From Methanolobus tindarius DSM 2278 (GTDB lineage Archaea; Halobacteriota; Methanosarcinia; Methanosarcinales; Methanosarcinaceae): a stretch of DNA of 64,000 bases. Position 1 is the first letter of the stretch. Every line of letters begins with the position of its first letter. The stretch covers positions 1,772,879-1,836,878 of the forward strand of contig NZ_AZAJ01000001.1 of NCBI RefSeq assembly GCF_000504205.1, written 5' to 3'. Positions 25,116 through 57,810 of the stretch are shown here, piece by piece. Under the pieces are notes generated by a model. It saw only the letters and a list, made by a program, of their open reading frames with translations. It searched no databases and was not told the origin of the DNA. A program made the translations under genes and the position numbers.

Positions 25116-25424
25116 TTATCCGAAAAGTGCTCCGAGACCAGCCATGCCGCTCTCTTCTGCTGCATCGTCTTCTTCTTCTTCAGCTGCTTCTTCTTCTGCT
25201 GGAGCTGCCTCTGCTGCTGCAGGTGCTGCTGCTGCAGGTGCTGCTGCGACTGCTGCTGTTGCCATTGCTTCCTCGATGTCTACGCCATCAAGAGCTGCGA
25301 CAAGTGCTTTTGCACGTGCGTCGTCGACGTCTATGCCAGCTGCCTGGAGTACTGCTGTTACTGCTTCTTCTGTAATGTCTTTGCCTGCTTTATAGAGTAA
25401 AAGTGCTGCATATATGTATTCCAT
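25116..25424 (-). CDS. rpl12: Ribosomal protein P1/L12
   Basis: Stalk protein of the large subunit, which recruits translation factors. The N-terminal dimerisation domain has [20 protein letters not shown] and [21 protein letters not shown]. An Ala-rich hinge and an acidic linker follow, and the conserved C-terminal factor-binding tail [10 protein letters not shown] is the same as in the P0 protein next door. Length 102 aa is normal. The ribosome site AGGTGAT precedes the ATG. It is the last gene of the operon, before a hairpin terminator. Confidence 0.97.
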
Positions 25425-25478: not shown

Positions 25479-26501
25479 TTATCCAAAGAGTGCTCCAAGT
25501 CCGGCCATGCCGTCTTCTTCAGATGACTCTTCTTCTTGTTCTTCTTCCTTCTCTTCTTCTTCAACAGTTTCCGCTGGGGCTGCTGCAGCTGCGCTTGCTG
25601 CCGCACCAAGTGCTTCCTTTAGTTCATCGTCAACTGCTTCTTCATTGTTAGCAGATGCAATTGATGCAACTGAAAGCATTTCGGACTGTGCTTTTCCAAG
25701 AAGCACATCGACGATGCCTGGTTCCAGTACCACTGCGTTGACACCAAGGTTTCGTGACTCTGTGGTTGCTTTTGCAATGAGTGTCTTGATGTTTTCTTCA
25801 GTTGGATATGCTGCGAACACGGATGTGTTGAATGCCTGCTGTGCTGCCAGCACAATGTCTGAGAAGTATTTGTCTTCGTCGATAGCCAGTACATCTGGTG
25901 TGAAGATCATTCCGTTCTCAAAGGCTGCTCTGAGGTCAAGACCTACTTCCATTGGATAGATCTCAAGTCTTGTAAGCATTGCAGCGAGTTTCTGTGAAAC
26001 TGCTTCGCCTTCTTTTGCTACGGCCTTTGTTTCTCTGATTACCACCTTTCCACCGTCGATAGCTGCAGGAATTCCTGCTGCCTGCATATCTCCGAGTATT
26101 GGTCCTGGTGGGAATGATGTTGGGCCCTTTTCGACGATAATGTCACGAGGTGCAATTGCACCTGCTTTGATTGGGGATGGGCTCTTGCTCTTTTCCAGTG
26201 TCTTGAACAGCTTGAATGGGTTCTGCTCTGTGAATACAAGGGCGGTCTGTACGTCTACGTACTCTTCCATGTCCTTTACTTCACTGGATTCGTCAAGTGC
26301 TCTTCTGATAAGTGTGTTTCTCGCAACTTTCAAAACAGCCTTGCCTTTAAGATCCCTTCTCATTTTCTGAAGTTGTTTTGCTGGGATTCCACCAATGCCA
26401 ATGACACCAAAAATAGGGTATTCCTTGATGAGTTCCTTGATTGCCTCAACTTCATCCTTTTTCCACTGAGGGATGTGGGTTGTGTGGTGTTCTTCAGCCA
26501 T
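25479..26501 (-). CDS. rplP0: Ribosomal protein P0 (L10)
   Basis: Base of the ribosomal stalk, which binds 23S rRNA and holds the L12 dimers. N-terminal RNA-binding domain with IPQWKKDEVEAIKELI and FGVIGIGGIPAKQLQKMRRDL, then the archaeal insertion domain (GAIAPRDIIVEKGPTSFPPG), helical L12-binding spine and acidic C-terminus ending [10 protein letters not shown]. At 340 aa the length is typical for archaea. It lies one base after the rpl1 stop, so translation is coupled. Confidence 0.97.
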   Translation of the reverse strand: MAEEHHTTHIPQWKKDEVEAIKELIKEYPIFGVIGIGGIPAKQLQKMRRDLKGKAVLKVARNTLIRRALDESSEVKDMEEYVDVQTALVFTEQNPFKLFKTLEKSKSPSPIKAGAIAPRDIIVEKGPTSFPPGPILGDMQAAGIPAAIDGGKVVIRETKAVAKEGEAVSQKLAAMLTRLEIYPMEVGLDLRAAFENGMIFTPDVLAIDEDKYFSDIVLAAQQAFNTSVFAAYPTEENIKTLIAKATTESRNLGVNAVVLEPGIVDVLLGKAQSEMLSVASIASANNEEAVDDELKEALGAAASAAAAAPAETVEEEEKEEEQEEESSEEDGMAGLGALFG

Positions 26502-26502
26502 T

Positions 26503-27144
26503 TTATACCACCTTCACTGACTTACCCATAGTGGTTGTAACATAAATTGATCTTATGTTGTGCTTGCCCTTTTCAAGGGAGCCTTCCACTCTATTAAGGA
26601 CTGTTTCTACGTTCTCTGCAAGTTTCCGGACTTCCATGTCTCTGCGGCCAACGGATACGTGGAATGTAAGCTTGTCTTTTGATCTTATTCTGATTGAGCT
26701 TCTTGCGCTGTTGATAAGATCAGCCACGTTCTTTCCTGGCGGCAATGGAGTTGGCATTTTACCTCTTGGTCCCAATATGGCACCAAGTGCCTTACCGATC
26801 TGTGCCATATATTGAACTTCTGCAATGAAGAAGTCAAACTCATTGGCAACTGATCTTGCACGTGACTTGTCATCTGCCATATCTGCAAGATCTTCCTCTG
26901 AGAATACGGTTTCTGCGCCAGCATCTTTTGCCTGAAGGCCAACCTCACCTTTCGCAAATACTGCGATCTTGAGGTCTTTACCCAGACCGTGTGGGAGTAA
27001 AATCTCTTCATCAACACGGTTTTTAGGCTGACTCATGTCCAGATTCTTTAAGTTAATAGCGAGCTCAATACCTTCTGAGAATTTTCTCTCAGGTGATTCT
27101 GCTAATAACTTCTCAATAGTTTCTACTATATTTTCGTCTGCCAT
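26503..27144 (-). CDS. rpl1: Ribosomal protein L1
   Basis: L1-stalk protein, 213 aa. Seen are RKFSEGIELAINLKNLD, the phosphate-binding stretch DMSQPKNRVDEEILLPHGLG, and the loop GPRGKMPTPLPPG, which is the most conserved part of the family. In other archaea L1 represses its own operon by binding its mRNA. A folded three-way junction directly upstream of the ribosome site (27151-27204) is a good candidate for such a site. rplP0 and rpl12 follow on the same transcript. Confidence 0.97.
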   Translation of the reverse strand: MADENIVETIEKLLAESPERKFSEGIELAINLKNLDMSQPKNRVDEEILLPHGLGKDLKIAVFAKGEVGLQAKDAGAETVFSEEDLADMADDKSRARSVANEFDFFIAEVQYMAQIGKALGAILGPRGKMPTPLPPGKNVADLINSARSSIRIRSKDKLTFHVSVGRRDMEVRKLAENVETVLNRVEGSLEKGKHNIRSIYVTTTMGKSVKVV

Positions 27145-27150
27145 TCTTTA

Positions 27151-27204
27151 CCTCCCGTAGTGTGAACTCATGGTTCAGGCAGGACCTTAACGGTCTACTA
27201 CGGC
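27151..27204 (-). promoter_or_regulatory. Three-way-junction leader RNA before rpl1
   Basis: In the transcript, CCGTAGT (27204-27198) pairs with ACTACGG (27162-27156). Between them lie two hairpins: GACC-GTTAA-GGTC, then TGAAC-CATGA-GTTCA. The ribosome site GGGAGGT starts at the last G pair of the closing stem, so folding would hide it. This resembles a mimic of the L1 site of 23S rRNA, but the contact bases of L1 have not been matched. Confidence 0.6.
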
Positions 27205-27302
27205 TTTGTCTAGAGTTTCAGGTGTTCAAACCTTATCTCTGTCTATAAGTGGGCACACCAATTAACAGTATTTATATTAAAGTTATTGGTCAAAGCATGG
27301 AA

Positions 27303-27788
27303 TTACCATGCTTCCTGTGCCAGTACATCGTCAAACTGTCCCTCGTCGATAGCTTTCTGGCATTCCTGTGGGGACATACCTTCTGCTGTAACGCCCATTG
27401 GGACACAGGATCCAAGAACCTCTTTTACAGCAGCTTTCAGCTCGTATGAAAGGATATCATCCTTCTTCATGCGTGCAATCTTTGCTGCCTGTGGGATCGT
27501 AAGGTTACCTACGATTGTTGTGTTTGGTTCGCCAGATCCCTTCTGGATTCCGATTTCCTGCATTATAAGTGCAGATGTAGGTGGAGTTCCGACTTCTATC
27601 TCAAAACTCTTGTCGTCTGCAACTATAACTTTTACCGGGACTTGCATCCCATTGAAATCTTTAGTCTTCTCGTTGATCTTGTCGATCACGTCTTTTATGT
27701 TAATTCCAAGAGGACCAAGTGCAGGACCAAGTGGTGGACCTGGATTTGCTTTTCCTCCTGGGACCAATGCTTCTACAACATTTGCCAT
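27303..27788 (-). CDS. rpl11: Ribosomal protein L11
   Basis: Protein of the GTPase-associated centre, 161 aa. The N-terminal domain has the conserved [19 protein letters not shown] with its proline cluster, and the C-terminal domain has the rRNA-binding helices ([30 protein letters not shown]). It is separated from rpl1 by 158 bases that hold the leader structure, and follows spt5 by 52 bases. Confidence 0.97.

Positions 27789-54879: not shown

Positions 54880-57810
<2,931 letters not shown>

Follow-up and report, generated by a model that had tools for sequence, protein, structure and literature searches.

The rpl1 locus and its predicted promoter

The window, i.e., the whole stretch of 64,000 nucleotides analysed here, belongs to a Methanolobus tindarius genome consisting of one contig of 3,151,883 bases. 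On its minus strand, a gap of 158 nt separates rpl11 from rpl1, and the element described below lies inside this gap on the same strand. The product of rpl1 is a normal archaeal L1, near to the solved archaeal L1 chains. The following features can be found at the locus and elsewhere in the window:

27303-27788, minus strand: rpl11, upstream of the gap
27270-27281, minus strand: TATA-like box TTTAATATAAAT, a predicted promoter serving rpl1-rpl10-rpl12 separately
27212-27240, minus strand: second, upstream leader hairpin AGAG-AUA-AGGU...ACCU-GAAA-CUCU, its presence conserved in the genus, its sequence variable
26503-27144, minus strand: rpl1 (ribosomal protein L1, 213 aa)
25479-26501, minus strand: rpl10, downstream of rpl1
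25116-25424, minus strand: rpl12, after rpl10
57053-57109, plus strand: L1 binding site of a 23S rRNA, at the position of helices 76-78

From the position of the TATA-like box, a leader of about 105 nt is predicted for rpl1. In related loci of many families, the motif ACCGATA-N-TTTAAAAT recurs at the equivalent position upstream of rpl1 and is likely a conserved BRE/TATA promoter for this gene. The box at 27281-27270 and its counterparts in relatives together suggest that rpl1, rpl10 and rpl12 have a promoter of their own. Ribosomal-protein mRNAs of M. psychrophilus have long 5' UTRs, averaging 165 nt (PMC5378194).

The upstream hairpin shows partial covariation within the genus, in an alignment that is imperfect around it. 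Hairpins of unrelated sequence (GAGACAGGC...GCCUGUUUC, by eye) apparently also lie upstream of the L1 element in other genera and in haloarchaea. A kink-turn, suggested by eye from UGAUGG/CCUGA in some species, was dropped, as others have UAAA/UAAA or are fully paired there.

Architecture of the leader element

The 3' end of the gap reads, on the minus strand, CCGUAG-U-A-GACC-GUUAA-GGUC-CUGCC-U-GAAC-CAUGA-GUUC-AC-A-CUACGG-GAGGUAAAGA-AUG, and can be divided into the following parts, all on the minus strand:

27198-27203, minus strand: outer stem, 5' strand CCGUAG, resembling 23S helix 76; six pairs, 100% standard
27196-27197, minus strand: asymmetric loop, 5' side, made of a variable N (U in this leader) before an A that never changes; 23S rRNA has GA there
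27183-27195, minus strand: hairpin 1, GACC-GUUAA-GGUC, resembling 23S helix 77; both-side changes in all four pairs
27178-27182, minus strand: linker CUGCC, invariant across 27 species of the genus
27163-27177, minus strand: hairpin 2, UGAAC-CAUGA-GUUCA, a family-specific insertion creating a three-way junction
27155-27161, minus strand: outer stem, 3' strand ACUACGG; A27161 faces N27197
27150-27155, minus strand: Shine-Dalgarno GGAGGU of rpl1, its first base also in the stem

In agreement with the original prediction, CCGUAGU (27203-27197) pairs with ACUACGG (27161-27155) around two perfect hairpins, the helix of the second, GAAC-CAUGA-GUUC, spanning 27176-27164, and the minimum free energy (MFE) fold reproduces this shape. 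Only six outer pairs are conserved; in relatives the place of the seventh, U27197-A27161, is taken by N.A, and the N before the invariant A can be U, G, C or A. The ribosome site does begin at the end of the stem, which lies 10 nt upstream of the ATG, since GGAGGU starts on the last stem base, 27155 (the 3' end of the 16S rRNA is GGATCACCTCCT). That the stem hides the ribosome site was, however, an overstatement: it occupies one of the six GGAGGU bases and leaves the other five unpaired.

The fold has an energy of -17.7 kcal/mol, and shuffled sequences average -15.5 (z -0.76; 42 of 200 shuffles equally good). Folding energy alone would not exceed chance for this element, and single-sequence folding, not being significant, was rejected as proof of structure.

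Compensatory change in the core helices

Comparison of the rpl1 leader among relatives, proposed at the outset as a check, bears the structure out. Across 45 diverse sequences, scored over the two core helices (10 pairs), standard pairs make up 94.4% of the pair cells, versus 22-54% in slid structures, and both-side changes occur in six of the ten pairs (24 cells). None of 500 shuffles attained this level of covariation. While these shuffle counts ignore relatedness, the slid-structure controls retain it. In the outer stem, C-G changes to U-A and G-C to A-U, and the four of its six pairs that are invariant provide no evidence for or against pairing; in hairpin 1, changes from A-U to G-C and others are seen. 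The count is conservative because, in haloarchaeal sequences, MAFFT places the helix two columns off in the alignment (A1), so that haloarchaeal cells were scored as unpaired. The leader structure is confirmed as real and is kept by compensatory change in both core helices.

A copy of the 23S L1 site

The suggested comparison with 23S helices 76-78 was equally fruitful, the leader core matching the L1 site of the genome's own 23S rRNA. The latter reads GUAG-G-AGAC...GUC-GCCAUUGGGAC-ACUAC and the leader GUAG-U-AGAC...GUC...ACUAC, so that GUAG-N-AGAC, GUC and ACUAC occupy matching positions in both and the GAC/GUC of hairpin 1 is common to them. The two differ in that helix 77 of the 23S rRNA runs on into helix 78, with a 3' loop of 11 nt, whereas in the leader it is closed by a 5-nt loop. 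A bipartite search of the 3.15-Mb genome for GUAGNAGAC...GUC...ACUAC (GUAG-N-AGAC...GUC...ACUAC, free gaps up to 30 nt) gave four matches, namely the leader and the three 23S genes, with no chance matches seen; a reversed control pattern gave 12, so some chance matches could have been anticipated. The count of four is weak by itself; it is the identity of the matches that is telling. Judged by sequence, the leader core copies the L1 site that the genome has in its own 23S rRNA.

Distribution across the phylum

The element can be found upstream of rpl1 in 27/27 species of the genus and, within the order, in each of the 59 sampled loci, two of which carry long inserts, and it is recognisable in 111 of the 114 loci sampled over the phylum, haloarchaeal-type and Archaeoglobus-type loci included. 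In nearly all groups the Shine-Dalgarno sequence and the stem are adjacent. A covariance model (R1), built from the 45-sequence alignment, matches the leader in its own genome at E 1.9e-6; a second match there (E 1.3, C1:671924-672006) falls within the gene of an ABC-transporter permease and was taken as chance. In 197 phylum genomes, each at least 90% complete, R1 gives matches at E <= 0.01 in 167, nearly always single. Where the positions of rpl1 and of the R1 match could both be compared (98 genomes), the match lies on the same contig and strand and ends 0-31 nt upstream of the rpl1 match in every case.

Among the misses, five belong to one genus (g3) that does have the element, which escapes R1 because of an insert of 73-75 nt. 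A further ten misses were looked at by protein: family f10 and some others lack a leader element though rpl1 is intact, and one miss so examined (L139) does have it. The element is therefore not essential everywhere. Families f10, f12 and f15 (L136, L138, L141-L145 and others) are without an L1 leader, and in several of these loci the end of rpl11 is no more than a few bases from rpl1; operator loss may, from this gene arrangement, accompany fusion of the rpl11 and rpl1 transcription units.

Hairpin 2 as a lineage-specific insertion

What is conserved is a two-helix, asymmetric-loop L1 motif, with hairpin 2 outside the core. The three-way junction of the original prediction is present in the window but is not part of the conserved design, the hairpin being inserted mainly in Methanosarcinaceae. 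The segment that separates hairpin 1 from the closing strand measures 4-7 nt in most of the phylum, usually starting with G; in most Methanosarcinaceae it measures 17-23 nt with GAAC/GUUC, GGAC/GUUC or AAAC/GUUU, and in one genus 73-75 nt. The second hairpin thus enlarges the L1 loop on its 3' side. It is less well supported than the core, because it is only modestly better than shuffles in single sequences and its four pairs are invariant within the genus.

Other insertions can be found in the element. A few genera (L029, L035, L061, L067-L070) carry the insert of 73-75 nt, with additional helices, and in sister family f2 (L039-L041, L045, L057) an unrelated hairpin, UUUGC/GCAAA, stands at the insertion point of hairpin 2, as either an independent insertion or a full replacement. 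We would offer only as a tentative and rather doubtful suggestion that the L1 operator was enlarged in Methanosarcinaceae, with the insert and the CUGCC linker forming a junction that adjusts the affinity for L1 or responds to a further signal (temperature or another protein).

Relation to known L1 operators

Leader L1 operators have been proposed for haloarchaea and Archaeoglobus, and L1 autoregulation has been demonstrated experimentally in Methanococcus. An L1 operator was reportedly described in the untranslated leaders of the L1 operons of haloarchaea and Archaeoglobus by Shimmin and Dennis, and by Kraft et al. in 1999. Loci of the haloarchaeal type (CCGUAGGAGCAUCCCUGCGUACUACGGAGG, L093) and of the Archaeoglobus type (CCGUAGGAGGCGUAAGCCGCUGGUACUACGGGG, L088; named Archaeoglobus, L127 and L131) have the same core in the same place and align with the window element, whose 3' side measures 21 nt with the extra hairpin, against some 2-6 nt in theirs.

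In Methanocaldococcus and Methanothermococcus loci, located with an M. jannaschii L1 sequence used only for that purpose, the core GUGAAG-G-A-GGC...GCC-GAGAA-A-CUUCAC is found among the first 80 nt of the coding sequence of rpl1, and no leader copy of it was found in the rpl1 loci examined. This coding-sequence core agrees with what is reported of the experimentally studied M. vannielii operator. The Methanococcus operator (stem GUGAAG/CUUCAC, G-A, helix GGC/GCC, 3' loop) has the architecture of the window leader, both following the order stem, N-A, helix, 3' loop, A, stem; it differs in its place, about 30 nt into the gene and not upstream of the Shine-Dalgarno sequence, in its stem sequence and in having no second hairpin. 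The shape contrast originally drawn with a single helix in Methanococcus was thus largely wrong, since it comes down to the extra hairpin. In a small alignment of leaders, 23S rRNA and Methanococcus mRNA the middle was misaligned, and only the flanks were used.

Repression by archaeal uL1 of its own message through rRNA mimicry is known (PMC10931766). The L1/L11 leaders of bacteria (E. coli rplK-rplA and others) follow the same uL1 logic (PMC10931766) but differ from the window element in gene order and sequence. Archaeal finds of a multi-genome study of ribosomal leaders were S15, eL15 and L4 leaders, L1 not being among them (PMC7247131). No family of Rfam 15 matches the window element at gathering thresholds, the best chance match being THF-II (12.5 bits versus 41 needed). 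L1 leader regulation being already known in kind, the window element would extend it, with a family-specific insertion.

Proposed mechanism and alternative explanations

A motif like the 23S L1 site, a place near the translation start of rpl1 and compensatory change, three features expected of an L1 operator, are found in this leader, which very probably serves ribosomal protein L1 as a translational operator that imitates the L1-stalk site. In the proposed mechanism, the core, with a stem of 6 bp, an N-A bulge, a short second helix and a short 3' loop, mimics this site of the 23S rRNA, and L1 in excess over new 23S rRNA would bind to it. Bound L1 would clamp the stem ending at GGAGGU, block 30S entry at rpl1 and so lower L1 and, by coupling, also L10 and L12 from the same message. 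As the stem by itself leaves five Shine-Dalgarno bases free, repression would most likely be due to L1, which on binding would stabilise the stem and keep the 30S subunit out. L1 autoregulation in Methanosarcinales, as originally predicted, is supported in this form by the 23S-site match, the phylum-wide position before rpl1 and the covariation, although without the supposed contrast to Methanococcus.

The element could instead act in processing or mRNA stability, with L1 or an RNase governing the life of the message. The upstream hairpin would fit such a role, and a paper cited in PMC10134880 reportedly links mRNA processing with ribosomal-protein synthesis in methanogens; yet the position of the element against the Shine-Dalgarno sequence in nearly all groups points to translation initiation, and this explanation is very unlikely. 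Regulation by the stem alone, through temperature- or folding-dependent masking of the ribosome site and without L1, is very unlikely. Although the stem ends at the Shine-Dalgarno sequence, and Methanolobus psychrophilus uses long 5' UTRs for which stem-loop masking of ribosome sites has been predicted (PMC5378194), five of the six bases are outside the stem, the predicted pairing of these bases changes with the folded length, and a mere stem explains neither the single-stranded N-A nor the match to the 23S L1 site. That the ligand is another protein of the operon, L10 or L10-L12, can be considered given that rpl10 and rpl12 lie downstream and that bacterial L10 complexes autoregulate (PMC10931766), but it is highly improbable for a core that copies the 23S L1 site and precedes rpl1, not rpl10. 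Chance palindromes in an intergenic gap, with which the z-score alone would agree, are refuted by the covariation, the matches in 167/197 genomes and the 98/98 positions before rpl1, and their probability is negligible.

With the preferred reading of an L1 operator, a covarying covariance model is now defined for the archaeal L1 operator, to which no Rfam entry corresponds, and one operator design would have been kept across the sampled phylum, with lineage-specific insertions and some losses. L1 autoregulation becomes testable in the genetically tractable Methanosarcina and Haloferax, for which the exact residues to mutate are given.
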